A stretch of DNA of 39,183 nucleotides from a virus. This document shows positions 8,924 through 37,931 of the stretch, piece by piece. Position 1 is the first letter of the stretch. Every line of letters starts with the position of its first letter. The translations under genes were made by a program, and so were the position numbers. Location: positions 1-39,183 of IMG/VR virus record IMGVR_UViG_3300035179_000029; one strand, given 5' to 3'. The notes below the pieces were generated by a model. It was not told where the DNA came from and did not search any database. It saw only the letters and a program-made list of their open reading frames with translations.

Positions 8924-9571
8924 GTGGACCAGGGCTTGGCGCTCTCGGTTTGTGTCGCCCACTGCAACCGCAGTCGGGTGATCTTCCGGGGACGGCAATT
9001 CAAGCTGTTCCCCGAGTGCGTCAAGTCCCTGATCCGCGCGGCCCGTCAGGCCCGCTTGCAGATCGAAGTGGTCATCGCGGACTGGCCCGACGTGCCGCAG
9101 CTGGCCCCGCTCTCCGCCTGGCTTGCCCCGACGATAGGCCCTCTGCCTTACCGCGTGCTCCCGATGGACGGCCCCTTCAACAAGGGGCGCGGCTTGAACG
9201 CGGCGGGCGAAGCGGCCGCCTCCGACAACCTCTTTTTCCTGGACGCGGACATGATCGTCCCTGGGGCGCTCCTCACCCGGGGGCTGGCCTGGCTCTCGGC
9301 CGGCAAGGCCTGGTTTCCGGGGTTCACGGGACGGGAGGGCAACTGCCCGCGGGCGACCGGAAACCTCTTCATCCGGCGCGAGGCTTGGCGCGAATGCGGC
9401 CGGCACGTCGCCTGGGACAACCGGCGTGGCTCCGACTGGGCCTTCGCCCAGGCGATCCTCGCGCGCGGCCTTTCGGCCGAGCCCCTGGAGAAGCGCCGGC
9501 CCGTCCCCGGCTTCTCCCATATCTGGCACCCGAAGACCATCGGATGGCGGCAGCCATGCTTTACGACGTAG
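8924..9571 (+). CDS. Glycosyltransferase, GT2/galactosyltransferase-like, 215 aa
   Basis: First gene of the sugar cassette. GT-A fold signs: an N-terminal LALSVCVAHCNRS strand, FNKGRGLNAAGEAAASDN, and FLDADM with the metal-binding D107-x-D109. Later, GREGNCPRATGNLFIRREAW corresponds to the acceptor region of beta-galactosyltransferase-like enzymes. It would move a sugar from a nucleotide donor to an acceptor in the cytoplasm. No membrane segment is seen. The GTG start is preceded by only a weak site. It overlaps the next gene by 16 bp, so translation is probably coupled. Confidence 0.8.
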   Translation: MDQGLALSVCVAHCNRSRVIFRGRQFKLFPECVKSLIRAARQARLQIEVVIADWPDVPQLAPLSAWLAPTIGPLPYRVLPMDGPFNKGRGLNAAGEAAASDNLFFLDADMIVPGALLTRGLAWLSAGKAWFPGFTGREGNCPRATGNLFIRREAWRECGRHVAWDNRRGSDWAFAQAILARGLSAEPLEKRRPVPGFSHIWHPKTIGWRQPCFTT

Positions 9572-10248
9572 TCCTGCTGTCCTACCGGCGGCCGGGGAAC
9601 CTCCCGGCCTGCATCGCCGCCGTCCGGTATCAGCGGCCGGCGCCCGGCCAGGTGTATGTCTGGCACAACGCGCCCTCGAGCCAGCCTTCTCCCGGCGCGG
9701 TCAACGTGATCGCCGGGGAAAACTTCCGCTGCCGGGCGCGCCACGCCCTCGGCTTGCTGAGCACGGCTCCGGCGGTGGTTTTCCTGGACGATGACGTCCT
9801 GCTCACCGCCCCGGACGCGCTGGCCCCGCTCCTGGCCGCCCTGGAGAAGCATCCGGATTCCGTGATAGGCCCCGAGGGCCGGCGCTGCCTGGCGGTGTCC
9901 CCGACCATGTATTGGGGTGCGGACTCCCAGAAGTTCGCCCACCAGGACGGCCCGGTGTCCATCGTCAAGGGCAAGGTCCACGCCGCCCGGCAGCAGGTCC
10001 TCTGCCTGGCTTTTGCCTCCTCCGACCTGCCCGAGAGCGTCTGGACGGAGGACGATATTGTCCTCTGCGCCAGCTCCCAGGCAGTTACGGGGCAACCTTC
10101 CTGGGCAGTGGCCGGGATGCGCGGCAAATACCGCGATCTGCGGGACGATCTCGGCAATGAGAAGCGGCCGGACCACTTCGCCCGGCGGGCGGCGGCCTGC
10201 CGGTACATGGCCAGCCTCGGTTGGGATCCGCTCCTGTGGAAGCGCTAG
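9556..10248 (+). CDS. Small glycosyltransferase-like protein with DDD motif, 230 aa
   Basis: Begins with a typical GT-A opening, LYDVVLLSYRRPGNLPACIAAVRYQ, and has VVFLDDDVLLTAPDALAPLL, where the DDD stands for the donor/metal-binding DXD. A later TEDDIVLC and a C-terminal GNEKRPDHFARRAAACRYM follow. This pattern resembles GT enzymes acting on glycan or core oligosaccharides. In-frame starts exist at 9544 and 9556; I chose the second because the enzyme core begins there. It overlaps both neighbours. Confidence 0.75.
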   Translation: MLYDVVLLSYRRPGNLPACIAAVRYQRPAPGQVYVWHNAPSSQPSPGAVNVIAGENFRCRARHALGLLSTAPAVVFLDDDVLLTAPDALAPLLAALEKHPDSVIGPEGRRCLAVSPTMYWGADSQKFAHQDGPVSIVKGKVHAARQQVLCLAFASSDLPESVWTEDDIVLCASSQAVTGQPSWAVAGMRGKYRDLRDDLGNEKRPDHFARRAAACRYMASLGWDPLLWKR

Positions 10249-10850
10249 AGGCCGTCCGCGGGGCGATCCGGGCGCGCCGGTCGGTGCGCTCCGGCTTCCT
10301 GCCCCAGCCGGTGGGGCGCGAACTGCTCCTCGAGCTGGTCGGCGCCGGCGTCTGCGCGCCTTCGGGCAGCAACACGCAGTCGATCCGGTTCCTGGTGGAG
10401 TCCCGTCCGGAGGAGATCCGGCGCCTGGCGGGCTTCCGGCGGCTGCCGGGGGACATCCTGGCCGGGGCCCGGGCCCTGATCCTGGTCTTCGCGGACCGGT
10501 CGGCAGTGGACTGGACGGGGCACCGATACTCCGACCTCTGGCGGCGCCTGGCCTATCAGGATGCCGCGGCGGCCATCCAGAATATCCTGCTCCTGGCCAC
10601 GGCCGCGGGGCTCGGCTCCTGCTGGATTTCGGCCGACCTCGAGATGGAGGGCACTCCGCTTCTGGCCGGCCAGACCTGGGCGGCCGCCCTGGCTCCCTAC
10701 CGGCTGCCGGCCAGCCAGGAGATCGTGGGGATCGTCATGCTCGGCCACATCGAGGGGCCGCCGGCCGGCGACGTGACCCACCACGGCCGGCCCGTGGCCC
10801 GGCGCCCGGTCCGGGAATACATCCTGGGCTTCGACGGGGTGCGGCCGTGA
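10236..10850 (+). CDS. Nitroreductase-family flavoprotein, 204 aa
   Basis: Nitroreductase-fold enzymes bind FMN and use NAD(P)H for reduction. Signs here: RRSVR near the start (residues 14-18), AGVCAPSGSNTQSIRFLV and AAIQNILLLATAAGLGSCWI, which fit the FMN and dimer contacts, and a C-terminal EIVGIVMLGHIEG. Start GTG at 10236 overlaps the preceding gene by 13 bp. In bacterial exopolysaccharide loci, nitroreductase-like genes often sit beside polysaccharide pyruvyl transferase genes, exactly as here. The substrate is unknown; it may act on a sugar- or lipid-linked intermediate. Confidence 0.85.
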   Translation: MEALEAVRGAIRARRSVRSGFLPQPVGRELLLELVGAGVCAPSGSNTQSIRFLVESRPEEIRRLAGFRRLPGDILAGARALILVFADRSAVDWTGHRYSDLWRRLAYQDAAAAIQNILLLATAAGLGSCWISADLEMEGTPLLAGQTWAAALAPYRLPASQEIVGIVMLGHIEGPPAGDVTHHGRPVARRPVREYILGFDGVRP

Positions 10851-10852
10851 GG

Positions 10853-11671
10853 ATGCTTCCGGTCTCGCACTGGGCGCGGCTCCTGGCCTCTATGCGCGGC
10901 AAGCGCCTGGGCTACGTCCGCGGCGAGCACGGCAACACCGGAGACACGCTCCAGGAGCGGGCCTGCTTCGAACTCTTCCGACTCCAGGGGCTCAACGTGG
11001 TCTGGCTGGGGCCGGTGGCCCACGGCCGGGAGCCCTGGGACTGGGAGCCTGGCGACGGGCTCTGGAACGGCCAGCTTTCCGCTTCCACCCCGGTCGACGA
11101 GCTGCTGCTCTTCGGCGGCGGGAATATGGGGCTCCCGGGGGGGAGCGCCAGGATCCGCGCGGCGGCCGCCAGGCTGGGGCTGCCGATGACCATCCTCCCG
11201 AATTCCTGGCGGGCCACGGAGAACCTTTCCGGGCAGGTCCGCTATTGCGCCCGGGAGCGGGGCTCCATCGAGCGCTACTGCCCCAAGGCCGAGCTTTTCC
11301 CCGACATGGCCCTTAGTTTCGACTTTCCGGAGGATCACGGGGCCGCCCGGCCCCGGGTGCCCCTTGGGGTCTTCCTCCGGAACGACCGGGAGGCCAAATT
11401 CTCCGGGGATGCCGTGCCGGGGAACCAGGGCCCGCCCTTCGGCAAGGTCGGCAAGCGGGACGTGGCCGGCTACCTCGTCCTGGCGGCCGCTCATGGGGTC
11501 ATCGTGACGGACGCCCTGCATTTCGGGATCGCCGGGCTGGCGGCCGGCCGGAAGGTCTACCTGGTGCCGGGGGCCTACCACAAGAACCGCTCGATGTACG
11601 ATTCCTGGCTCCGCGATCTTGGCTGCCTCTGGGCCGACTCGCCGGCGGCGGTCCCGGAGCTCAGGCCATGA
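10853..11671 (+). CDS. Polysaccharide pyruvyl transferase family protein, 272 aa
   Basis: Members add a pyruvate ketal from phosphoenolpyruvate to sugars in surface polysaccharides. Family features: GEHGNTGDTLQ near the N terminus (residues 25-34), ELLLFGGGNMGLPGG, FLRNDRE, and VIVTDALHFGIAG, with the His of the TDxLHxxI motif, then a C-terminal SMYDSWLRDLG. The length is a little short. ATG 10853 was chosen; a GTG at 10847 is also in frame. It overlaps the next gene by 4 bp. Predicted cytosolic. Homologs can also transfer other groups, so the precise reaction is open. Confidence 0.88.
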   Translation: MLPVSHWARLLASMRGKRLGYVRGEHGNTGDTLQERACFELFRLQGLNVVWLGPVAHGREPWDWEPGDGLWNGQLSASTPVDELLLFGGGNMGLPGGSARIRAAAARLGLPMTILPNSWRATENLSGQVRYCARERGSIERYCPKAELFPDMALSFDFPEDHGAARPRVPLGVFLRNDREAKFSGDAVPGNQGPPFGKVGKRDVAGYLVLAAAHGVIVTDALHFGIAGLAAGRKVYLVPGAYHKNRSMYDSWLRDLGCLWADSPAAVPELRP

Positions 11672-12204
11672 AGCCCCGCAAGCGTCCCAGCCTGCCCCCG
11701 GTCCCGGCGTTTCCGGGCTTTCAGGGGGTATCCAAGCTCCGCCCCAGGCAATTCGAGGCCTTGGCGGGCTCCCTGGCGCAAGGGGGCCGGTTCCTGGAGG
11801 TCGGCACCCTGCACGGCGTCACCGCCGCGCGCCTGGCCAAAGCCTGCCCGGAGGCCTGGGTCGTGAGCGTGGACGTGTTCCGCGAGCTGAATCCCAACGC
11901 CTGGCTTGCGAACCGGCAACCGAATCAGTCCCTTTTCGTCGGAACCCTCCAGGAGTTCGCGCTCTATGCCCGGCCGGGGCAGTTCGATGTGGTCTGGATC
12001 GATGCGGATCACCGCTTCGAGCCCTGCCTGGCGGACCTCCGCACGGCCGGCGGGCTCCTGAAGCCCGGGGGCCGGCTCTTCGCGCACGATTACGCTGACC
12101 CGGATCGGCTTGGGGTTACTATGGCAATAGATCGCTTTTGCATCGATGCTGGAAAGGTTGTCTCCGTGCTCGCGGGCTCCCTGGTGGAGATCCGTCGGCC
12201 ATGA
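11668..12204 (+). CDS. Class I SAM-dependent methyltransferase, 178 aa
   Basis: SAM-binding motif I is FLEVGTLHG (residues 42-50), followed by VVSVDVF (motif II acidic residue) and FDVVWIDADHRFEPCLADLRTAGGLLKPGGRLFAHDY, typical of the TylF/Methyltransf_24 group that methylates sugars, small molecules or lipids. Placed between a pyruvyl transferase and a glycosyltransferase with 4-bp overlaps on both sides, it most likely methylates a sugar in the same pathway. No DNA-methyltransferase target domain is present. Confidence 0.88.
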   Translation: MKPRKRPSLPPVPAFPGFQGVSKLRPRQFEALAGSLAQGGRFLEVGTLHGVTAARLAKACPEAWVVSVDVFRELNPNAWLANRQPNQSLFVGTLQEFALYARPGQFDVVWIDADHRFEPCLADLRTAGGLLKPGGRLFAHDYADPDRLGVTMAIDRFCIDAGKVVSVLAGSLVEIRRP

Positions 12205-13925
12205 TCCCCCGGCTGATTCACTTCGTCTGGATCGGCGGGCCGCTGCCCGACTGGGCCGCGCGCAACGTAGAGGAGTTCCGGAAGGTCAACCCGGGCTTTG
12301 CGGTCAAGGTCCACGGCGAGGAGGCCATCCTCCCTGAGTTGGCCGCCGTCTGCGCCGGCGCCGCGCATCCGTCCAGCAAGGCGGACCTGGTCCGGCTCTC
12401 CGTCCTCTCGCACGAGGGCGGATGGTACTTCGACGTGGACTACTGGCCGCTACGCCCGCTCGAGGAGGCCGTTTGGGCCTGGGGCCTCGACGGGCGCCGG
12501 GTGTTTGTCTCCCGGCAGAACCACATCAAGGTGCCTCTTAATAACTGCATGATGGCCAGCGCGCCGGGCGCGGCCGGGATCGGGGAGCTGATCTCCACGG
12601 CCCAGGCGACGCCGGCGAAGGACCGCTGCTGCTACGGCCCGGACTTGCTCAGCGCGGTCTACGCCCGCAAGCCGGGGTTGTTCGCGGTGGCCGACTGGCC
12701 CTGGTTCATGCCCATGCGCCACAAGGGGGCGGCGTCCTACTGGCAGCGGGCGCTTCGCGGGGACGTGGAGCCCCTCCGCCAGGCCGAGCCGCGCACCGGG
12801 GGCCAGTTGCCGTTCGCTCTCCACCTGTGGCTGAACGGTTGCGAGGCGGAGATTCTCCAGGCCTTCAAGAAGGCGCCGGACACCCGTCCCTTCGCGCTGG
12901 TGGAGGAGTGCCCCAGCGAGCAGCCCATGAGCGGGATGGCCGAGGGCCTGCACAACTTTGGGCTGCTGGTCAGGCGCTACCACCAGGATGATGAGATGGT
13001 CCTCGAGCGGATGCCGGTCAAACCATGCCTCCTGGTGGCCTGGAACAATATCCGCCGATCGAAACTGGCTGCCTCCGCGGCCCGGCACGGGGTCCCCGCG
13101 CTCTGGTGCGAGAACGGGTTTCTTGACCGCAAGCGCTACATCCAGGTGGACCCGGAGGGCTTTCTGCACCGGTCCGGCTGGCGCCGGCTCCTCGGCAACC
13201 CGGCCCCGGTGGAGGGGGCGGAGAAACTAGCGCGGTTCTACCCGAAGGGCACTGGGCGGATCACCGCGCGCATGGGCGGCTACATCCTGGTCCTTGGCCA
13301 GGTCGCCGGCGACACGCAGATGGTCGACAGCGAACTCCAGGGGTCGATTCCGCTTCAGCGCGAGTTGATCCGCGCCCTTCCCAAGGGTGCCGCGGCCTAC
13401 TTCCGTCCCCACCCACAGGCCTCCCTGCAGCGCAAGGACCGGACCCACGTCCACCTTCCGCTACTCGACGAGCGCCAGGAGGAACGGGCCGGCTACCGGG
13501 CGACGAAGTCCGGCTCCGGTCTGGCCGATGCGCTCTCCCAGGCTTCGTTCGTAGTCACGATCAATAGCAACGCGGCAGTCGAAGCGCTTGCCGCCGGCGT
13601 CCCGGTCCTGGCCTTCGGGCCGCACCTTGGCATCGACGCTGGAGTGATCCGGCGCTGCACCGTGGCGACGCTCGCGGCAGACATCCAGGCCATGCACCGG
13701 GGCTGGTGTCCGGAGCAGGCCCGGGTCGACAACTTCCTCCGCTGGCTGGCGGCCCGGCAATGGTGCCGGGAGGAGTTCGCCAACCCGGCGGTGATGGGCC
13801 GGCTTCTGGCCGAGGCCGGCGTGACCGTCGGGGGCGGGGTGGGCTCTGGCTCTCTTCCGGGGCCAGGCCCCTCCGCTCCCGTAGCCCCGGAAGGGAAACC
13901 GGAAGAAGAGAGGGTGCGAAAATGA
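12201..13925 (+). CDS. Two-domain glycosyltransferase: DXD sugar transferase plus capsule-type domain, 574 aa
   Basis: Residues 1-240 match the Gly_transf_sug family: IPRLIHFVWIGGPLP, SSKADLVRLSVLSHEGGWYFD and DVD (Asp78, Asp80). Residues about 270-560 look like a KpsC/KpsS-type capsule (Kdo-transferase-like) domain: LWCENGFLDR, AYFRPHPQA, and VVTINSNAAVEALAAGVPVLAFG. So one chain may carry two transfer reactions. Its 4-bp overlaps place it last in the sugar cassette. The acceptor is unknown. No membrane segment is seen. Confidence 0.82.
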   Translation: MIPRLIHFVWIGGPLPDWAARNVEEFRKVNPGFAVKVHGEEAILPELAAVCAGAAHPSSKADLVRLSVLSHEGGWYFDVDYWPLRPLEEAVWAWGLDGRRVFVSRQNHIKVPLNNCMMASAPGAAGIGELISTAQATPAKDRCCYGPDLLSAVYARKPGLFAVADWPWFMPMRHKGAASYWQRALRGDVEPLRQAEPRTGGQLPFALHLWLNGCEAEILQAFKKAPDTRPFALVEECPSEQPMSGMAEGLHNFGLLVRRYHQDDEMVLERMPVKPCLLVAWNNIRRSKLAASAARHGVPALWCENGFLDRKRYIQVDPEGFLHRSGWRRLLGNPAPVEGAEKLARFYPKGTGRITARMGGYILVLGQVAGDTQMVDSELQGSIPLQRELIRALPKGAAAYFRPHPQASLQRKDRTHVHLPLLDERQEERAGYRATKSGSGLADALSQASFVVTINSNAAVEALAAGVPVLAFGPHLGIDAGVIRRCTVATLAADIQAMHRGWCPEQARVDNFLRWLAARQWCREEFANPAVMGRLLAEAGVTVGGGVGSGSLPGPGPSAPVAPEGKPEEERVRK

Positions 13926-14434
13926 AGTGTCCACAGTGCGGAAGCATGAAGCTGGTCAGCGGGGGCGATCCGATCTCCACGGGCGGGGCACTCTACTACC
14001 CCCGCAAGTGCGAGGACTGCGGCTACTTCTGGAGCGACCGTCAGCCGTTGACGGTCCTCCGGCGGGTGGTGGCCATGCCCGTTCGCGGCGTGCCGTGGAA
14101 GCCGGGGGAGAAGCTCGCGCCGGCGCCGGAAGCCGAGGAGGGCGGGAAGCCCCCGCTGCCTTTCGCCGGGGAGGACGGCGAGATCAGCCCGCCGGCCCCG
14201 GAGGAAGCTCCGGCCAACTCCGAGGAGGCCGCAGGCGAGGTGATCGTCCGGGTCGGCGAGGGCTTCGACCCCCAGAAGGTCAGCCCCGGGGACGTGATCC
14301 TCTTCCTGGACGGCAAGAAGGAGCGGAGGTTGACGGTGGTCAGCGTCGCGAAGAAGAGCGTCCTTGGCGACGTTGACGGCAAGCCCGACCGGCGGATCCC
14401 CAAGGCGAAGCTGCTGGGCCGGGTCGAGGGGTAG
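13922..14434 (+). CDS. Zinc-ribbon protein with C-terminal SH3-like domain, 170 aa
   Basis: ATGA overlap with the last sugar gene. Residues 3-6 are CPQC and 30-33 CEDC (MKCPQCGSMK, then YYPRKCEDCGYFW), a clear zinc ribbon. The middle is Pro/Glu/Ala-rich and probably disordered. The end, SPGDVILFLDGKKERRLTVVSVAKKS, resembles a small KOW/SH3-like beta barrel. It returns to the structural block after the sugar cassette. Its role is unknown; a nucleic-acid or virion-assembly partner is possible. Confidence 0.65.
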   Translation: MKCPQCGSMKLVSGGDPISTGGALYYPRKCEDCGYFWSDRQPLTVLRRVVAMPVRGVPWKPGEKLAPAPEAEEGGKPPLPFAGEDGEISPPAPEEAPANSEEAAGEVIVRVGEGFDPQKVSPGDVILFLDGKKERRLTVVSVAKKSVLGDVDGKPDRRIPKAKLLGRVEG

Positions 14435-14437: not shown

Positions 14438-14788
14438 ATGGCGGATTCCCCCTTCCAAACCGCGGCCAAGGCCGCCGTGGGGGCGTTCTACACGACCGGC
14501 GGCGAGGCCGTCACCTACGCGCGGGGCTCCATCGACGTCGAACTGACCGCCGTCAGGAACCGGATCAGCGCCGAGGTGCCGGATACAGACGGCGTCTTTG
14601 CGCGCGAGGACCGGCTCGAGTTCCAGGTCCTGCAGGCGACTCTCGACCTGGGGGCCGGGCCGGTTGAACCGCAACGGGGGGACACGATCACGGACGCGGA
14701 CGGCAGGATCTACGACGTGCAGGACGATTTCGAGCCCCTGGAGCAGTCGGGCGAGTGGCAGATCCCCGTGGTGGAGGTGGACGCATGA
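14438..14788 (+). CDS. Head-tail connector/adaptor protein, 116 aa
   Basis: Length and layout suit the gpFII/head-tail adaptor family (lambda gpFII is 117 aa). The last 65 residues are beta-rich: AREDRLEFQVLQATLDLGAG, PQRGDTITDADGRIYDVQDDFEPLEQSGEWQIPVVEV, the strand-turn pattern of this family. It would bridge the portal/gpW plug and the tail terminator. It overlaps the next gene by 4 bp. Assignment rests on fold pattern and position, not on a conserved catalytic motif. Confidence 0.68.
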   Translation: MADSPFQTAAKAAVGAFYTTGGEAVTYARGSIDVELTAVRNRISAEVPDTDGVFAREDRLEFQVLQATLDLGAGPVEPQRGDTITDADGRIYDVQDDFEPLEQSGEWQIPVVEVDA

Positions 14789-15009
14789 CCCGGGACGAAT
14801 TCGAGAAGGCCGAGGCCGCGCGGCGGGGAAAGACCCAGGGCGAGATGGCGGCCCTCGGCTACTACTCGGCGGCCTGCGAGTGCCGGGGGGGGGATGCTTG
14901 TCCCGGTTGGCAGATGGTGGCCGTCCCGGTGGACGCCCCGGAATTCGAGCGCCGCGCGGCGCTCCAGACTTTGCACGGGCTGTACCCGAAACCCTTTGGA
15001 GGGGGCTGA
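14785..15009 (+). CDS. Small protein of unknown function, 74 aa
   Basis: ATGA overlap with the adaptor gene. It carries one CxC and one further Cys (ACECRGGDACPGW), too few for a standard zinc finger on their own, plus helical ends rich in Glu and Ala. No signal peptide or membrane segment. It sits between the head adaptor and the lysis-like membrane proteins. Nothing more can be said. Confidence 0.6.
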   Translation: MTRDEFEKAEAARRGKTQGEMAALGYYSAACECRGGDACPGWQMVAVPVDAPEFERRAALQTLHGLYPKPFGGG

Positions 15010-15010
15010 C

Positions 15011-15094
15011 ATGACCCGCACCCACAAGCTGCTCGCCATCGTCGTTACCGGCCTGGCCATCTTTCTGCAATCGTGCCTGCCGCCCTCGGAGTAG
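15011..15094 (+). CDS. Lipoprotein signal peptide-like short ORF, 27 aa, ending in an amber codon
   Basis: Encodes MTRTHKLLAIVVTGLAIF followed by LQSC, a lipobox-like cleavage site ([L][x][S]C), then LPPSE and TAG at 15092-15094. The next codons continue in the same frame into the downstream protein, so this looks like its signal peptide cut off by a stop. See the downstream entry. Confidence 0.5.
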   Translation: MTRTHKLLAIVVTGLAIFLQSCLPPSE

Positions 15095-15103
15095 CAGCTC
15101 GCC

Positions 15104-15667
15104 TTGATCCGCCAGGCACAGGCGGCGGTGGAGGCCTACAAGGGCGCCGACGCGCGGGTGGCGTCCATCCGGGCCAAGATCGACGAGATCCGAAAGGCGC
15201 TCGAAGGCGGCGCCGGCGCGACCGACCCCTCGCTCCAGACCCGGCTGTTGGCCCTGGTGGCCGAGCTGCCGGCGGCCTTGGCCGACGCGCAGAACCTCTC
15301 CGGGCAGGTCCAGAAGGCCGCCCAGGCCGTCCAGGATGCGAAGGGGATGCCCTGGTATGGGTGGATCGTCCCGGGACTCACCCTGGCCCTGGGAGTCGCG
15401 GGGATCTACTTCCCGGCCCTGAAGCCCGCCCAGGCGGCCCTGGCGGCCGAGCCGGCCCGGCAGACCGGCGAGTGGGTTGCCGGCGGGCTCGCGGCGGCGC
15501 TGGCCCTGCTAGCGGCATGGCAGAAAAAGAAGGCGGTGGACGCGGAGAAGGAACGCGAGGCCGAGGAAGCGCGGTTGAAGACCGAGCGCCTTGAACTTGT
15601 CCGGGCAGTCGGGGATCAGAACAAGGTGGACGCCGCGCTGGCCAAGGCGCGGGAAAAGAGCGGGTGA
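15104..15667 (+). CDS. Membrane protein with coiled coil; probable body of an amber-split lipoprotein, 187 aa
   Basis: In the same frame as the 27-aa ORF upstream; only TAG at 15092 separates them, and the bases after it (CAG CTC GCC TTG) read on without interruption. Alternatively translation starts at TTG 15104. The first 80 residues are helical (AQAAVEAYKGADARVASIRAK...). A hydrophobic hairpin follows: WIVPGLTLALGVAGIYF, then VAGGLAAALALLAAW. The end is a charged coiled coil (AEKEREAEEARLKTERLEL). It is possibly an envelope protein of the lysis region, such as a spanin or its precursor; this is an inference. Confidence 0.6.
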   Translation: MIRQAQAAVEAYKGADARVASIRAKIDEIRKALEGGAGATDPSLQTRLLALVAELPAALADAQNLSGQVQKAAQAVQDAKGMPWYGWIVPGLTLALGVAGIYFPALKPAQAALAAEPARQTGEWVAGGLAAALALLAAWQKKKAVDAEKEREAEEARLKTERLELVRAVGDQNKVDAALAKAREKSG

Positions 15668-15670
15668 ACG

Positions 15671-15958
15671 ATGCCGGAATCCCAAACCGTAAAGGATTGC
15701 GCCGCGCTTCGACAGGCGTGTCGCGATGCGATCTTCGAGAAGATGGACGCGCAGCATGAAGATGTGATGGCCGCCCTTTCCGATATCCGCGTCAAGGTCG
15801 CGGAGGAGAAGGGCGCGCGCGACTCGCAAGCCGAGACCCCGGTTGCCGGAAAGAAATTTCCCTGGCGCGAGGTTGGCGCGGCCATCGCAATCACCGCCGG
15901 GGCAATCGGCGCGGCCGTTGCCGGGATTTACGCAGCGGTCAAGGGTCTTCATCCGTGA
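15671..15958 (+). CDS. XhlA-like membrane protein, possible holin accessory, 95 aa
   Basis: N-terminal charged helix with MDAQHEDVMAALSDIRVK, then a basic stretch (GKKFPWREV) and one C-terminal membrane helix AAIAITAGAIGAAVAGIYAAV. This architecture (soluble helix plus C-terminal transmembrane segment) resembles hemolysin XhlA-type holin accessory proteins. It overlaps the next gene by 4 bp. Without an endolysin nearby its role remains inferred. Confidence 0.6.
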   Translation: MPESQTVKDCAALRQACRDAIFEKMDAQHEDVMAALSDIRVKVAEEKGARDSQAETPVAGKKFPWREVGAAIAITAGAIGAAVAGIYAAVKGLHP

Positions 15959-16137
15959 TCGCCTACACCCTCGCGCTCTTCGTGGTGGTGGTCATCGTCT
16001 GCCTGGCGATCCTCGCGGCCACGGTCTTCGGGCGCGACCTCAAGAACGGGCTCTGGTGGCTCGGGGGGATCGTGGTGGGGATCGTCGATTGGGCGCTGAG
16101 GAAAATCTTCGGCGAGGATGAGGAGGCGGAGCAGTGA
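15955..16137 (+). CDS. Small membrane protein, holin candidate, 60 aa
   Basis: GTG start overlapping the previous stop. A strong membrane helix lies at residues 4-26 (TLALFVVVVIVCLAILAATVF), then a positively charged turn, a second hydrophobic/amphipathic stretch (WWLGGIVVGIVDWAL) and an acidic tail (EDEEAEQ). Size, two hydrophobic segments and charged C terminus fit small holins. Position beside the XhlA-like gene supports this, but no functional motif proves it. Confidence 0.6.
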   Translation: MIAYTLALFVVVVIVCLAILAATVFGRDLKNGLWWLGGIVVGIVDWALRKIFGEDEEAEQ

Positions 16138-16191
16138 TGGCTTGTGCGCTGGTCCGGTTCCGGTTCCCGCGCGCGATTGGAGGGCGCTGAG

Positions 16192-16470
16192 ATGCCGCAA
16201 TTCCGAGTGGTCCGCGACAAGGCCGGCAAGGCGCTCTGTGCCCGGTCCGCGGCAGACTTGAAGTCAATGCCCTACAGCGCCACAGAGGAACGCGAGTTCG
16301 TCATGGCCTGGGAGGAGTTGGAACTGGAAGCCGCTCGGGCCATCAATGGCGAGAAGCCCATCGCCGAGGTTTTCGATGGTTTGGCAAAAACCGCCACCGC
16401 AGAGTTGAAGATGGAACTTGAAAAGCGCGGTTACTCCGTGGCGCTGGTCAAGTCGATAGTGGGGAGTTGA
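16192..16470 (+). CDS. Small protein of unknown function, 92 aa
   Basis: ATG at 16192 after a GGAGG-type site. The protein is Ala/Glu-rich and probably all-helical (WEELELEAARAINGEKPIAEVFDGLAKTATAELKMELEKRGY). It ends at TGA 16468-16470, two bases before the GTG used for the tail spike. Possibly an accessory factor for spike or tail assembly, by location only. A 17-codon frame at 16137-16190 precedes it and is not annotated. Confidence 0.6.
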   Translation: MPQFRVVRDKAGKALCARSAADLKSMPYSATEEREFVMAWEELELEAARAINGEKPIAEVFDGLAKTATAELKMELEKRGYSVALVKSIVGS

Positions 16471-16472: not shown

Positions 16473-19400
16473 GTGCCTGTTGTCGATAGGGTGCTCGGCT
16501 ACCCGGAGACCTGCACCATTGCCGACAATGGCGCGGGCAAAGTCCGCGTTACGCTTCAGGGCAACGCTCTTGACCCCAAGTTCTACGCCGCGATTGCCGT
16601 GGACGGCTCCCACTATCTCGACAACGTGACCCAAGCTGGCGGCACCGCCGCAGTCACGGCGAAGGGCGGGACGAAAGCCCAGGGTTATTATTTTGACCTC
16701 GGCGGGGTGAACTTTCCTAGCGCCTCCTGGGCCGCGGCTGACCGCATCTGTCCGATTCGGCAGAGCACGGCCTACAATTATACCGCATGGGCGACCTTGC
16801 ACGCAGCGGCCTCCTCGATGGACACGGCGATCCTCTTTGGGTTGTCCACCACCCAAACCCGATATGATTGGGATGCCACCAACCTTGTTGGAAAAGGTTT
16901 TTCGATCTGGGGTGGACCCCTGGGGCAAAAAATTGTTTTGCATGGATCGAATTTCTCGGGTGACCTCTCTTCTCAAACCTCAATGGTAACCATTGAAAAC
17001 TGTCTAATCAATGGGCATGGCGGTTACTCGGGAATTGTCTATGCTCCAGGCAACGGCACGCCTGGGGCCGGCTTACTGGTTTCGCGATGCATTTTGGTGG
17101 GCCTCGCACAGGCGATATATGCACAACAGTACGCAGGAGACAATCTTGTCCAAGCAGTAAACTGCGTGTTTGCTCATAACCTGAACGCGCTTTACTCCTA
17201 CCAGGCGACTTGGAAGATGGTTGCCATCAACTGCACCTTCATTGAAAATTCCTCCGGCAACTATTTCAAGGCGGCGTCTACCATAACCAACTGTTTGTTC
17301 GTCGGAAATGTGTCAGATGGAACGACCACCACAAAACTAAATTGTGCATCCGACCAAGGATGTGTTGGCACGGGGTGCCTGCAAAATCAAACCCTTGCGC
17401 AGTTGGCTCTATGGTCTGGCAACGATAATGGGATTGGCGTCCGTGCTGGCCGAATCCTCACAACCTCGACCTGTTACGGTGCGGGGACGGCAACTGGTGC
17501 GCCTACAGTAGATATAGACTACAACACCCGGGCAGCAACTCCCTCCATCGGCGCCCACGAGGGCACCGTCAACGCCTACGGGGTGACGTGGCTCGCGGCT
17601 GGAGTCCTGCACACTGACCAGTCGCAGATATCTTTCGCCGGCACCATCACTGGCACGATGCCGCGTACTACCGTCGTCCCCACCGCCCTGACGCTGACCG
17701 CCTACGCGGACGGCGACACGACGGTGACGGTTTCCAACATCGCCAGCATCGCCGCGACCGACGTGCTCGAAATCTATCTCGATGGCGTGAGCATCTACAA
17801 AATCAGCCGGGCGAAGTATGAGGCGGTTGTCGAGGACAAGCCGGCCAACTGTGGTCGAATCTCCTGCCTCGCGCGCGGCACGGCCTACGCCGCAAACCGA
17901 TTCACCGCGAAATACACCAGCGACCTCTACGTCTACGGCGCCGCCAGTGCGAACCCGGCCAACCCGGTGACGCCGGACCTGGACGTGACCGACACGCGAT
18001 TCCTGGTCAAGGAAGCTTTGTCCACACGGAACCAAGTCGTCACCCCACTCAGCGCCGTCCCGTCTCCCGCCAACGGCGGCCCGGCGGCGTGGACGCAACT
18101 GGGAGTGAGCAGGGTGGGAACGGGCGATAAGGTGCTAAGTCTCGTCAACGAGGTCGCCCGCAACACCATCGTGGCCACCAAGGTTGAAGCCCTCCACGCG
18201 TACCTGCACTTGGGGGCTCCGGCGGAGGGGGAATTACCTGTCCTAGTGGGCCTCCCGATCATCGACCTTCGGCCCGTTCACACAGCACCAGGAGAGGATT
18301 ACGTCGCTTCCTTCTTTCTTGGGCAGACGGTGCGGGCGGCGGGTTCCCTGCTCTTCGAGAAGCCCACTACGGCCACCGTCACCCTGGCCGTTCAAAAAAC
18401 GGATGGAAGTTCTGGCCAGACTCTTCTATGGAACAAGGTAGTCGATTTCTTGGCCGGCGTGTCCAAGACCTATGCGGAGATGAATGACGACGAAGAGGTT
18501 GACTGGACGCCGGGTGAGGCTGAAGACTGGGAGCTAATCCTAACGGTTGCAGAGTATCCCGAGGTTGATGACCGTGCAGGATTTGCCGTCTTAGACCCCG
18601 ACACTCTCGATACCCCCGACCCTGCCGACGTGCGGGAGACAACGACCACGGGCGGGGAACCGGGTGAGATTCCCCAGAGCGATATTGAGGTCGCCAGCGG
18701 CGGGACCTTGAACCTGGCTACCCTCCTGGCCGGCGCCTATGCTTCTGGCTATGCGGCTGCGGAGGCATTCTTCGGGGCCTGGGAAGCTGCCCGGAACACG
18801 GCCCTGTCCGCTTCCAAGGTGGCTCTGGGATGGGTATTCCGGCAGTTCGGCATTGACGATATCGGGGAGCTGGACATAGTCGAACCAGAGGCGCCTTCCT
18901 GGGGCGCCGCTCCGGTCGCTGGCGATGGGAAGGTGACGCTGAACGTCCTGACGGTGAACCCAACCGATAAGGTTTATGCCCGGAGCGCTAGTTTCAGTTT
19001 CGCGCCGTCCTGGTCGGCTGAGTCGGAGATCTTCCAGCGGACCGGATCCGGCCCCATCGTCATGACCGGCCTGCCGAACGAGCAGTTCCGCATGTTCACG
19101 ATCTACGTCAAGAAGAACGGGCTTACCTCCGTCGCGTTGGCCCCGCGCTTCAAGACCCCCACGGCCGGCGCCCAGGCGGTCATCGAGCAGATCATGGACG
19201 CGGTGACGGACCAGGTGAACGCTCTGGGGCTAACCTCCAAATCCGAAGCCGGCGCCGCCGTGGCCATCGCTGCCGAAGTCGAGATCCCACCGAAGTTTGC
19301 CAGCGTGAACACGCCCGGTGTCAAGGTCTACCCCGACACGGAGGAGGCCGAGCCGGTCCGTTCGCGGAACCAGGTGACTTACCGGGTCAACGTGGCCTTC

Positions 19401-19619
19401 TGCCAGCGGAGCAAGGCGGTTGTCCAGCAGGAGGAACAATTCAGGATCCGCGAGATGCTCCGGGACCAATTCCTCGGCAAGCGCCTGGTGGCCATGCCCA
19501 CGGCCGTCTGCGTCGGCGAGTCCGAGAGCGAGATAGTGGACTTGCAGAAGCTCTTCGAGAACTTCCAGTGGGTGTCGAACATCACCCTGGAGTTCCAGAC
19601 GCTGAAGGCGAGGGGCTGA
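16473..19619 (+). CDS. Tail spike: beta-helix N-terminal part fused to a tail-terminator-like C-terminal domain, about 1048 aa
   Basis: GTG 16473 was chosen (GGGGAG 6 bases upstream); TTG 16467 is also in frame. Residues 100-350 show repeated short strands with Asn/Gly turns (TSMVTIENCLINGHGGYSGIVYA, VNCVFAHNLNALYSY, INCTFIENSSGNYFKA), typical of a right-handed beta-helix spike that binds host glycans. This part is less GC-rich than its neighbours. A long FN3-like, Thr/Val-rich centre follows. Residues about 890-1048 (AVIEQIMDAVTDQVNAL, VTYRVNVAFCQ, FRIREMLRDQFLGKRL, SNITLEF) resemble gpU/minor-tail terminator proteins. Confidence 0.75.
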   Translation: MPVVDRVLGYPETCTIADNGAGKVRVTLQGNALDPKFYAAIAVDGSHYLDNVTQAGGTAAVTAKGGTKAQGYYFDLGGVNFPSASWAAADRICPIRQSTAYNYTAWATLHAAASSMDTAILFGLSTTQTRYDWDATNLVGKGFSIWGGPLGQKIVLHGSNFSGDLSSQTSMVTIENCLINGHGGYSGIVYAPGNGTPGAGLLVSRCILVGLAQAIYAQQYAGDNLVQAVNCVFAHNLNALYSYQATWKMVAINCTFIENSSGNYFKAASTITNCLFVGNVSDGTTTTKLNCASDQGCVGTGCLQNQTLAQLALWSGNDNGIGVRAGRILTTSTCYGAGTATGAPTVDIDYNTRAATPSIGAHEGTVNAYGVTWLAAGVLHTDQSQISFAGTITGTMPRTTVVPTALTLTAYADGDTTVTVSNIASIAATDVLEIYLDGVSIYKISRAKYEAVVEDKPANCGRISCLARGTAYAANRFTAKYTSDLYVYGAASANPANPVTPDLDVTDTRFLVKEALSTRNQVVTPLSAVPSPANGGPAAWTQLGVSRVGTGDKVLSLVNEVARNTIVATKVEALHAYLHLGAPAEGELPVLVGLPIIDLRPVHTAPGEDYVASFFLGQTVRAAGSLLFEKPTTATVTLAVQKTDGSSGQTLLWNKVVDFLAGVSKTYAEMNDDEEVDWTPGEAEDWELILTVAEYPEVDDRAGFAVLDPDTLDTPDPADVRETTTTGGEPGEIPQSDIEVASGGTLNLATLLAGAYASGYAAAEAFFGAWEAARNTALSASKVALGWVFRQFGIDDIGELDIVEPEAPSWGAAPVAGDGKVTLNVLTVNPTDKVYARSASFSFAPSWSAESEIFQRTGSGPIVMTGLPNEQFRMFTIYVKKNGLTSVALAPRFKTPTAGAQAVIEQIMDAVTDQVNALGLTSKSEAGAAVAIAAEVEIPPKFASVNTPGVKVYPDTEEAEPVRSRNQVTYRVNVAFCQRSKAVVQQEEQFRIREMLRDQFLGKRLVAMPTAVCVGESESEIVDLQKLFENFQWVSNITLEFQTLKARG

Positions 19620-19624: not shown

Positions 19625-20032
19625 ATGCCTTTCTTCGCCGTGGCCCTGAAGTTCAAGGCCGCCTATTCCGCCATCCGAAAACAGGCGGCCATGGCCCTGC
19701 GCAAGGAACTGGATGCCAGGGCCCAGGAGGTTCTGGACGAAGCCAGGGCCTCGATCGTGAAGGGCGGAGGCTCCAGCAGCCCGGGTCATCCGTTCCACAG
19801 CCAGAGGGGGGCGACCAAGAGGCTGCTGAAGAAGCGGGTGGGCCGGCGTACCGCCTTCGTCGGCTTCGGCCGGGGGAAGGCCACCGTGGACAAGCGGACG
19901 GGAAAGAAAATCCGGCCGGCGCGCGCCGTGCCGAACATTTTGGAGCATGGCTCACGGCGAATGGCGCCGCGGCCGGTGCTGGAGCCCGCGCTTGAGCGGG
20001 TCAAGGATCATCCCTTCAGGTCCATGCTGTAG
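19625..20032 (+). CDS. HK97 gp10-like head-tail/tail-completion protein, 135 aa
   Basis: Family of 130-160 aa basic proteins located between the adaptor genes and the tail-tube gene, needed for joining the tail. Pattern here: FKAAYSAIRKQAAMALRKELDARAQEVLDEAR (helix), GHPFHSQRGATKRLLKKRVGRR (basic loop), AVPNILEHGS and the end MAPRPVLEPALERVKD, with the RPVLEPAL helix typical of the family. Coupled to the spike gene by 6 bp spacing. Confidence 0.75.
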   Translation: MPFFAVALKFKAAYSAIRKQAAMALRKELDARAQEVLDEARASIVKGGGSSSPGHPFHSQRGATKRLLKKRVGRRTAFVGFGRGKATVDKRTGKKIRPARAVPNILEHGSRRMAPRPVLEPALERVKDHPFRSML

Positions 20033-20070: not shown

Positions 20071-20562
20071 ATGGACACTCCGGAGAGAGGGTTCGAAAGC
20101 ACGCTGTACGTGAACACGGCCACTTTTGGGGCCCCGACGTGGACCGAGATCGACCTGGCACGGGATTTGAAGAGCCTCCGCGACCAGGCCGAGCTCAAAA
20201 CCACCACGCGCGGGACGGCGCGGCGGGGATTCGAGGCAGCCGTGGCCGGGATCACGCCGGCGGGCTGGGAGTTCGAGATGCTCAAACCCGCGGCCGGCGA
20301 GAGCAACGACGCCTACACCGCCCTGATCGCGGCCCTGAAGGCCCGGACCAGCGTGGACCTGCTCCACGTGGACGGCGGGGACATCGATCAGGACGGCCTG
20401 CCGGCCACGCGCATCGTCTGCTGCGTGACTGGGGGAGGGGAGGGGGAGCCGATCAGCGACGTGACCACGGTCAGCCTGAAGTGCCAGTTCACGCAGAACG
20501 CCGACCAGGAGGCACCGGAGGAGGGCGTTACGTCCGGCGGGGACTTAATCGCCGGCAGCTAG
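20071..20562 (+). CDS. Major tail (tube) protein, 163 aa
   Basis: Strong AGGAGG site upstream of the ATG. The beta-rich protein begins MDTPERGFESTLYVNT, with the KTTTRGTARRGFEA and GITPAGWEFEMLKPAAGE segments typical of lambda-gpV/Phage_tail_2-like tube proteins. It precedes the tail chaperone genes and tape-measure gene, the canonical order. A strong hairpin lies 18 bp after its stop, so high expression is likely. Lacks a C-terminal Ig-like domain. Confidence 0.8.
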   Translation: MDTPERGFESTLYVNTATFGAPTWTEIDLARDLKSLRDQAELKTTTRGTARRGFEAAVAGITPAGWEFEMLKPAAGESNDAYTALIAALKARTSVDLLHVDGGDIDQDGLPATRIVCCVTGGGEGEPISDVTTVSLKCQFTQNADQEAPEEGVTSGGDLIAGS

Positions 20563-21055: not shown

Positions 21056-21246
21056 CGGCCCTGGCCGGCGTCGATCCCTGGGGCCCGTACCAACTGCCGG
21101 AGATGGTGGCCATGGCCAAGGCCCGGAACGATGCCCAGTTCGCGCATGATGTGGCCCTGGTGAACTTGCTGGCCAACTCATTCTCCCGGAGCCCGGCGAA
21201 GGTGGAGACGTTCAAGCCGCTGAAGGAGCTCGACCATGGCGCGTAA
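21019..21246 (+). CDS. T-like C-terminal domain reached by probable -1 frameshift
   Basis: Frame is -1 relative to the chaperone gene and has no good start codon of its own. The last 70 residues (LPEMVAMAKARNDAQFAHDVALVNLLANSF and TFKPLKELDHGA) match the GT-type extension: a helix with a xMAxARxxAxxxxxxLLALIAN-like pattern, then a short end. The likely slip is at CCGGAAAAGCC (21011-21021) or in the C-run at 20996-21000. It overlaps the tape-measure start by 11 bp. Confidence 0.6.
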   Translation, partial: AVKFTRTDWCRIAALAGVDPWGPYQLPEMVAMAKARNDAQFAHDVALVNLLANSFSRSPAKVETFKPLKELDHGA

Positions 21247-23032
21247 GACGTTCATCGGCAACGCCTTTATCACCATCACCGGCGACAAGAAGGGCCTGGA
21301 CGCGGTCCTCTCTCAGATCCGGGGGCCGATGGAGAAGCTGGGAAAAGAACTCCAGCAGATCGGCTTCAAGATGATGGCCCTGGGGGCCGCCATCCAAGCA
21401 CCCCTGGTCGCGGCCACCAGGCAGTTTGCCAAGGTCGGATCCGAGGCGGCGCACGCGGCGGAGCGGACGGGGACCCTGGTCAACGAGTTCACGGAGCTCA
21501 CCCACGCCGCGAAGCTGACCGGCGCCGGCCCGGAGGCCCTGGAGAAGGCGCTCCTGGCCATGGAACGCGGCCTGGGCGGCGGCAAGGCCAAGAAGGCGCT
21601 GGCGGACATCGGGCTCACACCGGCCGGGCTCAAGGGCAAGTCGGTTGTCGAACAGTTCGAGACGCTGGCCGACAAGATCGCGGGCATCGAGGATCCTAGC
21701 CGGCGCGCCTGGGTGGCCATGCAACTCTTCGGAAAGGGCGGGGCGGCCCTGCTCCCCATGCTTTCCCTGGGCCGGGAGGGGATCGAGGGCTACCGCGCGG
21801 AGGCCCGGCGCCTGGGGGTGTCCATCGGGCCGGAGATGGCCGGCAACGCCGAGCGGCTGGACAAGATGCTGGAGCGCCTCCAGGACGCCTTCAAGGGGCT
21901 CATGCTCACGGTTGGGGACATCCTGGCGCCGGCCTTCACGAAAGTAACGACCTACTTCGTCAACCTGGTTGCGAACCTCCGGGAGTACCTGGCCAACAAC
22001 CCGCAGGTGGTGATGGGAATCCAACAGGTGGCGATCGCTCTGACTGCGGTGGGGGCGGCCCTGGTCGGGCTGGGGACGGCCTCGCGCGTCCTGAGCTACC
22101 TGGTGAGCCCCGGCGGGGTGCTGCTGGCCCTGGCCGGGGTGCTGGTTTACATCTCCGGGGCGCTGGATCCGCTGATCGAGACGTGGGGCGCGGCCATCAT
22201 GGGCTTCGAGATCGGAGGCAAGACGATCTCCTCCTGGCTGGCCTTGATCGGGGAGTCCTTCGGGCTCTTGTGGGACACGTTCAGGAGTTCCCTGGGCCGA
22301 CTCATGCCCGTGCTGCAGGGGTTCGCCAGCCTCTTTGTCCAGACCTTCGGGTCGATGTGGGCCGCGGTGAAGGCGGGCTTCCTGGAAGGCCTGAACTTCA
22401 TCCTTTGGAAGCTCGGCGAGATGCTGGTGGCCATCGGCGACGGCTTCGCCAAAGCCTCGGAGGAGGCCAAGAATCCCCTGATGAAGCTGGAGCTCAAGGG
22501 TCTGGCCGCCATGGGGTACGGAGGATCGCAGGCGGTCTTCAAGGCCGCCGGCGGCGTTGGCTCCGCCATGGCGGAGGCGCGCAGCAATCAGATGGAGGAG
22601 CGCGAACGAACGGCCGAGATGGCCAGGTCCTTCGCCGCCTTAGTCGGCTCCAACCTGGAAGGCCAGGGCTGGATATGGGGCGACGCCTTCAGGACCCTGG
22701 GGGACAAGTGGGCCGCCGCCCTGGGGCCGCTGATGGGGTCGATTTTCGGGGAAGAGGGGAAGCCTGGCGGGGTTCAGAGCTTCCTGGACATTTTCAAGGG
22801 GCTCGGCCGGCCGTTCAAAGATTTCGAATCGCCGAAGTTGGGCCTGACTCCGGAGCGGCCGATGCAGGTGGCCTTGGCTGCCTCCGGCACCTTCAGCGGG
22901 GCCGGGGCGGCATTCATGGCCGCAGGCAAGGGAGGCGGGGTACTCGACGTGCTCAAGGAACAGCTTGCCGTTCAGCGCGAGATGCGCGACGAAATCCGCG
23001 ACCAGAACCAGGGCTACGGCGGAGAGGAATAG
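21236..23032 (+). CDS. Tape measure protein, 598 aa
   Basis: Sets tail length; 598 residues would correspond to roughly 90 nm at about 1.5 A per residue. It starts with a tail-tip-like domain (FIGNAFITITGDKKGLDAVLSQI), then a long helical region (KLGKELQQIGFKMMALGAAIQAPLVAATRQFAKVGSEAAHAAERTGT, GLGGGKAKKALADIGLTPAG, MAGNAERLDKMLERLQDAF), with two hydrophobic stretches in the middle (VVMGIQQVAIALTAVGAALVGLG and VLLALAGVLVYISGAL). It directly follows the chaperone genes. The hydrophobic region is typical of tape measures that insert into the host membrane. Confidence 0.9.
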   Translation: MARKTFIGNAFITITGDKKGLDAVLSQIRGPMEKLGKELQQIGFKMMALGAAIQAPLVAATRQFAKVGSEAAHAAERTGTLVNEFTELTHAAKLTGAGPEALEKALLAMERGLGGGKAKKALADIGLTPAGLKGKSVVEQFETLADKIAGIEDPSRRAWVAMQLFGKGGAALLPMLSLGREGIEGYRAEARRLGVSIGPEMAGNAERLDKMLERLQDAFKGLMLTVGDILAPAFTKVTTYFVNLVANLREYLANNPQVVMGIQQVAIALTAVGAALVGLGTASRVLSYLVSPGGVLLALAGVLVYISGALDPLIETWGAAIMGFEIGGKTISSWLALIGESFGLLWDTFRSSLGRLMPVLQGFASLFVQTFGSMWAAVKAGFLEGLNFILWKLGEMLVAIGDGFAKASEEAKNPLMKLELKGLAAMGYGGSQAVFKAAGGVGSAMAEARSNQMEERERTAEMARSFAALVGSNLEGQGWIWGDAFRTLGDKWAAALGPLMGSIFGEEGKPGGVQSFLDIFKGLGRPFKDFESPKLGLTPERPMQVALAASGTFSGAGAAFMAAGKGGGVLDVLKEQLAVQREMRDEIRDQNQGYGGEE

Positions 23033-23949: not shown

Positions 23950-24912
23950 ATGGGCCTCCCGCGGAAGGTAGTCAAAGGCAAGCGGCCACAGGTCGGGGAC
24001 ATCAACCGGCTGATCGACCGGCTGGACGCGCTGCAACGCGAGGTCGCCGGACTCAAGGGGCGCAAACTCAGAGACGAGGAACCGGCCCTCCGGATCTATG
24101 CGGTAAACAAGACCGGCGACGATCTTAGACAGGGCGACGCGGCGGCGCTGGCTGGCTCTCCATATACGACCATCCAGGAGATGCAGCGCAACGGCATGGT
24201 CGCCAAGCTGGAGGCCTTCCAGGGTTCCGGGGGGCGCGACACGCGACCCTGGGCCGTGGCCGAGAACCTCATCGAAAACGACGAAGGCGGGTACGTCTAC
24301 GTCGCCGGGCTCTGTATGGCCAGAGTCATCGGCGGGGTTGGGGCCGGGGATTACGCGGCGGCGCCGGACGGCGGCGGGGCCGTCCTCGAGCGCTATAGCG
24401 AGGGAGCCCCCATCGTTCAGGAGGGCGACGAGACCGCCGAGGGCGGCGGCGAACGCTGGGACCTGATCGACCTCCGGCCCGGCGGCGGCGCGGGCGAGGC
24501 GGGGGCCGACCTCTGTGCGGCCTGCCAGACCCCGGGAACCTATCAGACTATCGGGGCCGGAGGCGGATGGACGGCCGTAACCATAGACGCCCTGCTGTCG
24601 CCGACGAACTGGCTCAGCGCCAACAAGTTGTGGGCTCCCTCCACCGGGCTCTATATCTGCGCGGGAGGGGTCCTATGTTCCTGCGCGCCGCCGAACGTCC
24701 CGCAGTTCCGCTATCGTCTCAATCCCGGCGGGGATTACGCGGATGCCTCGGAGTTCGGCGGAGGGAACATGTTCTTGTATGCCGATGGGAGGGGAGGGGC
24801 CCTGCCATCGAAGATGCTGGCCAATACCGGGCTGGGGTTGGAGGTCCTCGCCGATCCGGGAATCAATATCACGATCATCAATGCCTGGTTGCGACTGGCC
24901 GGCCCGCTCTGA
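23950..24912 (+). CDS. Probable tail fibre/receptor-binding protein, 320 aa
   Basis: N-terminal coiled coil (VGDINRLIDRLDALQREVAGLKG) for trimerisation, then a Gly/Asp-rich shaft (GVGAGDYAAAPDGGGAVLE, GGGAGEAGADLCAAC), and a C-terminal beta-rich domain (WTAVTIDALLSPTNWLSANKLWAPSTGLYICAGGVLC and the end ITIINAWLRLAGPL) resembling C1q/TNF-like or fibre-tip folds. Two Cys pairs (LCAAC, LCSC) might bind metal or disulfides. It ends exactly where the minus-strand block ends. Confidence 0.55.
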   Translation: MGLPRKVVKGKRPQVGDINRLIDRLDALQREVAGLKGRKLRDEEPALRIYAVNKTGDDLRQGDAAALAGSPYTTIQEMQRNGMVAKLEAFQGSGGRDTRPWAVAENLIENDEGGYVYVAGLCMARVIGGVGAGDYAAAPDGGGAVLERYSEGAPIVQEGDETAEGGGERWDLIDLRPGGGAGEAGADLCAACQTPGTYQTIGAGGGWTAVTIDALLSPTNWLSANKLWAPSTGLYICAGGVLCSCAPPNVPQFRYRLNPGGDYADASEFGGGNMFLYADGRGGALPSKMLANTGLGLEVLADPGINITIINAWLRLAGPL

Positions 24913-37193: not shown

Positions 37194-37899
37194 GCAGACG
37201 GACAACTACAACCTGGAGGCGAAGCTCTGGATTCGCCGGAAGCTCCTGGAGGGCTGGCCCCGCCAACGGCCGCTGGCCGTGCTCGACTGCTGCGCCGGCG
37301 AGAAGGGCGAGATTTGGAAGGCTCTCCGGCGCGGCTCGGACCTGGACATCCGATACATGGGCATCGACCAGAAGCCGGTCGGCCGGGCCGTGGTCCAGTT
37401 CGATTCGATCCGCTGGCTCCGGGAAATGGCCTGGGCCGCGGACTTCGTGGACATCGACACCTACGGAGAGCCCTGGAAGCATTACCAGGCCGCGGTCGAT
37501 CGTGAGCTGCCCGAGTTGCGCATTGCCCTGACATACGGATTCCAATCCCGGAGCATGGGGGTTATCGGGCGGGGCCTTTGCGAAGTGGCCGGGCTGCCCG
37601 GCGATTGGTGCACGCGCCTGCTCAAGGGTTCGAGCGGGGATCTATTCTTCTGGGCGCAAAGGCCCAACGGAATCCGGGACTTGCTGGTCCGGCGCGCCCT
37701 CGGCTACCCTCTGACCAAAGGGTATCTAATCCTCCAGGCCTGGCAATACGAGACCGGAAGGAATTCCAGCACCTATTACTGGGGGCTCATCATCCGGCGC
37801 CAGGGGGCCGGTTCCACTCGTAAAAGGAAGCGCCAGGAAAACAAAATTATCCCTTGTGCGCTTCGCACCCAGAGCGATATAATATCCGGGGGAAAATAG
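37177..37899 (+). CDS. SAM-methyltransferase-fold protein, 240 aa
   Basis: RPLAVLDCCAGEKGEIWKAL resembles SAM motif I; YMGIDQKP is a motif II-like acidic turn, and DFVDIDTYGEPW resembles the catalytic DxYGxP of tRNA/nucleic-acid methyltransferases. A later helix-rich part (SMGVIGRGLCEVAGLPGDWCTRLLKG). Target unknown. Its last codons contain the -35 and -10 boxes of the next gene's promoter. Start ATG 37177 lies inside the previous gene by 17 bp. Confidence 0.65.
   Translation: MSKSNKQTDNYNLEAKLWIRRKLLEGWPRQRPLAVLDCCAGEKGEIWKALRRGSDLDIRYMGIDQKPVGRAVVQFDSIRWLREMAWAADFVDIDTYGEPWKHYQAAVDRELPELRIALTYGFQSRSMGVIGRGLCEVAGLPGDWCTRLLKGSSGDLFFWAQRPNGIRDLLVRRALGYPLTKGYLILQAWQYETGRNSSTYYWGLIIRRQGAGSTRKRKRQENKIIPCALRTQSDIISGGK
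37854..37883 (+). promoter_or_regulatory. Promoter for the radical SAM/repeat genes
   Basis: TTGTGC (37854-37859), 18 bp, TATAAT (37878-37883). The preceding AATTATCC is shared with the promoter at 26197. It lies inside the end of the previous gene. Confidence 0.65.
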
Positions 37900-37900
37900 C

Positions 37901-37914
37901 GCGGCAAAGGCCGC
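37901..37914 (+). promoter_or_regulatory. Small 5' UTR hairpin
   Basis: GCGGC-AAAG-GCCGC in the leader between the promoter and the radical SAM gene. Confidence 0.45.
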
Positions 37915-37931
37915 AAGAAAGAACGGAAGCC

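Follow-up and report, generated by a model that had tools for sequence, protein, structure and literature searches.

A putative beta-helix spike fused to the tail terminator of a phage that probably infects Planctomycetota

The window analysed here, a stretch of 39,183 nt (positions 1 to 39,183 of IMG/VR virus record IMGVR_UViG_3300035179_000029), carries a gene whose product ends in a tail terminator domain and begins with a spike-like protein of about 890 residues. We hold with moderate confidence that this terminator, fused N-terminally to the spike, is displayed as neck appendages extending from the terminator ring. All of this is read from sequence: assignment of the C-terminal domain is firm, for the N-terminal part a right-handed beta-helix is the likeliest fold (on sequence matches that fall below formal thresholds), and the fusion, found on a single metagenomic contig and in one example, is very probably real. 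The features concerned are as follows:

nt 16473..19619, + strand: spike-terminator fusion gene (1,048 residues; GTG start; uninterrupted frame)
nt 16941..17315, + strand: probable right-handed beta-helix, residues 157-281 (PF13229 below cut-off, cysteine rungs, periodicity, match to a planctomycete protein)
nt 18870..19169, + strand: residues 800-899, a claimed FN3-like domain and the P/A-rich linker preceding the terminator (low-confidence model)
nt 19176..19616, + strand: tail terminator domain, residues 902-1048 (family profile, AlphaFold2, Foldseek, VIA-align)
nt 14438..14788, + strand: head-closure (Hc1-like) gene, named by position (19 relative loci matched by tblastn, lowest E 1.9e-8)
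nt 19625..20032, + strand: HK97-gp10-like gene after the terminator domain (TIGR01725 E 8.6e-4, below cut-off; profile of the relatives' downstream gene, E 3e-7)
nt 20071..20562, + strand: major tail protein, so named from its position and relatives (74 relative loci matched by tblastn, lowest E 2.8e-16)
nt 21236..23032, + strand: tape measure protein (phrog_8462 E 5.4e-28; 73 relative loci)

The tail terminator domain and its neighbouring genes

A terminator profile built from 140 stand-alone copies in relatives matched residues 902-1044 of the fusion protein with 34.3 bits (E 1.5e-8, search of the relatives plus the window), and the isolated domain scored 40.7 bits, compared with at most 10.9 bits for 2,000 shuffled sequences. 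Identity of the domain to its relatives is at most 30%; the stand-alone gene of locus L029, for instance, matches residues 890-1048 with 27.8% identity (tblastn, E 1.6e-4). Judged by the best identities of other window genes to relatives (head-closure 41%, major tail protein 37%, tape measure 35%), such a low value does not appear unusual among the neck and tail genes of this phage. In the tree, the window terminator sits on a very long branch (5.84) that does not permit its placement. Matches of the family to library profiles were weak, with 5 of 54 members matching phrog_4204 ('tail terminator') and 2 of 54 each matching phrog_179 and PF11367.

The domain, modelled by AlphaFold2 with 53 relatives (pLDDT 83.2, pTM 0.78), is predicted to form an antiparallel sheet with two flanking helices, the arrangement that defines the terminator fold, and the top PDB matches returned by Foldseek were T5 p142, T4 gp15 and other neck complexes. 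Alignment with VIA-align gave Z 14.0 for the Mu terminator (133 residues, 2.6 A), 12.5 for T5 p142 (134 residues, 2.8 A) and 12.4 for lambda gpU (124 residues, 2.8 A). The initial annotation had seen a resemblance to a gpU-type terminator at the C-terminus and proposed structure prediction as its check; the confident fold bears this out and, together with the profile and the gene position, identifies the C-terminal ~147 residues as a genuine tail terminator.

Head and tail genes of the window follow the usual order, the former comprising terminase, portal, a protease-capsid fusion and head decoration. The order Hc1, terminator, gp10-like, major tail, chaperone and tape measure is common to the window and its relatives, and the fusion gene occupies the usual slot of the terminator, directly before the gp10-like gene, which starts 5 bases past its stop codon. 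This position had been noted at the outset, as had the apparent lack of a separate terminator gene, and both observations held: among the 511 stop-to-stop frames of the window (at least 40 codons, both strands) the terminator profile matched no other, the next having E 4.5. With no other candidate in the window, the fusion gene encodes the sole tail terminator of the phage.

Several other genes of the window merit description. Between the head decoration and neck genes (nt 9547-13925) lies a cassette specifying a glycosyltransferase-2-like protein, a nitroreductase (PF00881), a polysaccharide pyruvyl transferase (PF04230), a methyltransferase (PF13578) and another glycosyltransferase, whose matches include PF04488. 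The last shows 36% identity to a protein of one relative (L127:5788-7431) encoded just 5' of the head-closure gene of that locus, and the cassette might modify virion or host glycans. Between this glycosyltransferase and the head-closure gene (nt 13922-14434) is the gene for a small protein that carries two CxxC pairs close to the N-terminus and by eye resembles a zinc ribbon. The run of small genes between the head-closure and spike genes (nt 14785-16470), several of which by eye specify membrane-helix or coiled-coil proteins and some of which are holin-like, may be a lysis cassette or a set of morons. The tail-tip-like protein (nt 23950-24912) has 320 residues, compared with 539-698 for those at the same place in L032, L043 and L138, and by eye its C-terminal part is unlike theirs. 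Towards the right end, a protein with a CxxxCxxC motif (nt 37854-38687) is radical-SAM-like by eye.

The spike part and the junction

The frame is free of stops from nt 16467/16473 to 19619, and counting from GTG 16473, which has GGAG 6 bases upstream, it holds 1,048 codons; TTG 16467, in frame, is an alternative start candidate. For the N-terminal part, PF13229 matched residues 157-281 with 18.4 bits (E 0.0018; curated cut-off 25.9). In the same region (N/R)-C rung cysteines were counted by hand at residues 177, 206, 231, 254 and 274 (spacing 29, 25, 23 and 20, by eye), and a 24-residue periodicity over residues 150-300 was equalled by 14 of 500 shuffles; over the wider residues 90-370 the lag-24 value was equalled by 171 of 500, which amounts to no signal. 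A search of 392 Planctomycetota genomes returned a single match to the beta-helix region, with 29% identity over 146 residues (E 3e-4), to a protein that by eye is itself beta-helix-like with a dockerin-like end. Downstream of this region a choice-of-anchor-Q profile scored 12.6 bits where its cut-off is 25. The N-terminal beta-helix proposed in the initial annotation is thus supported, at scores short of the curated thresholds.

The FN3-like middle domain of the same proposal was not confirmed, as Pfam and NCBIfam returned no FN3 match in the fusion protein up to E 1 and AlphaFold2 gave no confident fold there: in the low-confidence model of residues 800-899, strands occur at 823-827 and 835-839 only. 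More generally, the full-length model (pLDDT 43 overall) is unconfident across the N-terminal 890 residues and informative for the terminator alone. Searches with the beta-helix part (tblastn in phages) found nothing, and no relative of the whole protein was detected by tblastn or peptide-pattern searches of phage records and IMG/VR. Of two family scans of the whole protein, one was without a match and that against Pfam gave sub-threshold matches only. PDB sequence searches with the terminator domain, the beta-helix, the profile and the whole protein gave no credible match.

The two parts are separated by a P/A-rich stretch (residues 890-901), and the start codons of the relatives' genes align with the window junction at Q901/A902. 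Since the relatives have stand-alone genes that begin at this very point, the fusion is very probably both real and derived. Third-position GC falls to a low point of 0.56 in the beta-helix part, compared with 0.85-0.98 in the terminator part, suggesting that the spike may have a different origin, as would fit the capture of a foreign gene.

Stand-alone terminators in relatives

The portal search yielded 28 viral loci, and those examined carry a stand-alone gene of ~142 residues between the head-closure and gp10-like genes. Eleven such genes were aligned (A1), and searches with this alignment yielded 54 genome loci and the best 80 of 269 viral loci. All but three of the 54 genome loci (L040, L060 and L083) are titled Planctomycetota, and therefore the host of the phage is probably also a member of this phylum. 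The 151 loci with a match provided 131 distinct terminator copies, partial ones (L017, L080, L083 and L082, the last in two pieces in different frames) being left out. In 129 of the 131 the start codon lies no more than 4 codons from the domain start; the exceptions are L019, whose start is 13 or 23 codons further upstream, and L077, which is cut by the contig end. None of the 131 copies, the viral part being the best 80 of 269 loci, carries a spike, with the proviso that these scans were queried with stand-alone terminators and a divergent fused class could escape them. Of 131 loci for which a downstream gene was called, 90 have the gp10-like gene immediately after the terminator.

A search led by the window's own domain gave six loci, all stand-alone (L179 and L180 are the contigs of L097 and L094, respectively). 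In the 392 Planctomycetota genomes, 78 terminator matches were found in 39 genomes, and no spike fusion was seen at seven match places that included all frames of more than 300 residues. At one of these places (L164, G208:C16:911000-920000, minus strand), a frame of 342 residues comprises a tandem pair of terminator domains. Pseudomonadota genomes served as an outside control, and 101 of 398 had a match to PF11367; of the five longest frames (339-770 residues), four are ordinary genes whose start lies a few residues before the domain, while the fifth, below cut-off, is hydantoinase-like by eye. Pattern searches of viral contigs with the tape measure and major tail proteins gave nothing useful. 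The results suggest that the spike-terminator fusion is very probably derived and rare, and it is unique in this sample; similar fusions may exist elsewhere. Among predicted viral structures (BFVD), a protein of 946 residues from an uncultured member of the Caudovirales (A0A6J5L8B8) matches the terminator fold at rank 13, and judged by its length and this fold match it may be a second fusion or something else. Further fold matches in that collection have 392, 455 and 532 residues.

Accessory genes do occur next to the terminators of some relatives. Directly after it are encoded a Collar-domain protein in L092 (8442-9251, PF07484 E 2.7e-15), a protein of 525 residues in L046, L047 and L050 (L046:1125-2702) and one of 642-643 residues in L058 and L059 (L058:2319-4247), the latter two without a family match. 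Just 5' of the terminator, L092 and L058 have a small protein with, by eye, a coiled coil and a membrane helix, where the window has its holin-like genes. The site accepts such genes, which makes their acquisition near the terminator a plausible route to the fusion; their position in the genome is no proof of a position in the virion.

Likely neck display and comparison with known systems

Between stopper and tail tube, six copies of the fusion protein would assemble into the usual terminator ring, as in the lambda virion, which has one hexameric gpU ring at this place (PMC10721106). The N-terminus is predicted to leave the domain at helix 1, in the outer helical layer and not in the sheet that would line the lumen; in T5 p142 two helices flank the sheet, which faces the lumen as its lining (PMC11784142). 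The same account reports that T5 p142 with an N-terminal tag was soluble while a C-terminal tag led to aberrant fibres (PMC11784142), so an N-terminal extension is the likelier to project outward. It also places the T5 N-terminus among the subunit contacts (PMC11784142), so that a large extension could hinder the ring. If the fusion assembles unprocessed, six arms bearing the beta-helix would project from the neck and, being anchored by the terminator itself, would be present on all functional tails. The arms would then most likely be whisker-like appendages that bind or cut carbohydrate, auxiliary to the separate tail-tip protein; the tail-tip gene has a C-terminal region of its own, so that receptor binding need not fall to the neck arm. 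Neck display of the spike, read from the terminator domain, is likely, and a role in adhesion or attachment is put forward as a hypothesis. Thus, the earlier proposal that a spike is covalently joined to a neck protein stands for the encoded polypeptide, while its display, projection and part in attachment are what we infer. We put at about even odds the fuller scheme of a siphophage in whose lineage the terminator gene captured a beta-helix protein and the terminator ring became the base of six large, obligate arms, uniting termination, head joining and neck adhesion in one polypeptide.

Other explanations were considered. Beta-helices are common in phage depolymerases, and the arm might be displayed on the neck without being an adhesin, serving instead as a polysaccharide depolymerase or as a structural brace holding head and tail together. 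The gp40 of Vibrio phage XM1 is said to strengthen the contacts between head and tail (PMC10457771), and the distal neck-fibre module of Anabaena phage A-1(L) is described as a binding module without host binding (PMC10966104), but neither Pfam nor NCBIfam detected a catalytic family in the spike part; a non-adhesive arm is a serious, if somewhat unlikely, alternative. Less probable still is that the fusion is a precursor, from which a protease or weak initiation at ATG 19194 frees a terminator of ~16 kDa while the spike is discarded or functions at another site. Relatives as a rule have stand-alone terminators (129/131), the P/A-rich stretch separates the domains, and this ATG is in frame, 7 codons into the terminator domain. 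However, it lacks the SD-like motif seen at 18 of the 21 listed gene starts of the window, no SD-bearing in-frame start was found between residues 548 and 995, and initiation at nt 19194 would cut into helix 1 (residues 898-917 in the full-length model). An independent, SD-led terminator start at the junction was ruled out on these grounds.

It is improbable that the gene is an artefact in which two separate genes were joined, either by chimeric assembly or through gene decay in a defective prophage. The occurrence on a single contig, the lack of whole-protein relatives among phage records and in IMG/VR and the dip in third-position GC would fit such an origin, but all 1,048 codons are open, the terminator domain is complete with alignable ends, and the close spacing to the gp10-like gene and the downstream gene order are intact; the GC step is explained equally well by recombination. 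Very remote indeed is the reading of the C-terminal domain as a fibre tip or trimerisation domain, with the terminator encoded by another gene. Tail-tube and terminator folds are widely reused in phages (PMC11784142), but the domain is orthologous to stand-alone terminators in the same slot, its fold matches are dominated by terminators, and the window scan gave no other candidate, so this reading was rejected. Display of the unprocessed fusion on the neck is the reading we prefer. If true, covalent fusion would fix the copy number of the appendage at six and make it obligatory, and the N-terminus of a terminator could carry ~890 extra residues. For Planctomycetota phages, the attachment of which is to our knowledge little studied, it predicts six external densities at one ring.

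The terminators of lambda (gpU), T5 (p142) and Mu resemble the window protein in fold (VIA Z 12-14) and in their place between head-closure and tail genes, but they are small, single-domain proteins, whereas the window protein adds a spike-like N-terminus of ~890 residues. Larger terminators with added domains are described in contractile systems, where these bind the sheath or duplicate the fold (PMC11784142). In the related planctomycete prophage and phage tail modules, the terminator is orthologous and the gene order shared, but every terminator copy that could be assessed there is a separate gene. The neck appendages compared here (XM1 gp40, NPS, wac) are separate polypeptides with their own neck-binding anchor, unlike the single open frame of the window, the product of which may nevertheless act in a similar way. 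The closest in arrangement is XM1 gp40, a tailspike-like collar protein present as six trimers in non-covalent contact with the stopper and the terminator gp5 (PMC10457771). As described, it has 839 residues with an Ig-like anchor and comes from a contractile phage. The lactococcal 936/P335 NPS proteins are likewise neck appendages (~500-900 residues), and groups D and E of the 936 type resemble beta-helix-type pectin/alginate enzymes (PMC6669499); they are reported to come from a separate gene with an N-terminal BppU-like ring domain and a C-terminal adhesive part, while the window spike is N-terminal. The neck fibres of A-1(L) (PMC10966104) and the T4 whiskers (wac; PMC10491603) are described as separate proteins on other neck rings. 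No description of a spike-terminator fusion was found in open-licence PMC papers. The suggestion of a new attachment solution therefore holds in part: neck spikes as such were already known from XM1 and the 936 phages, and it is their covalent fusion to the terminator that looks new.
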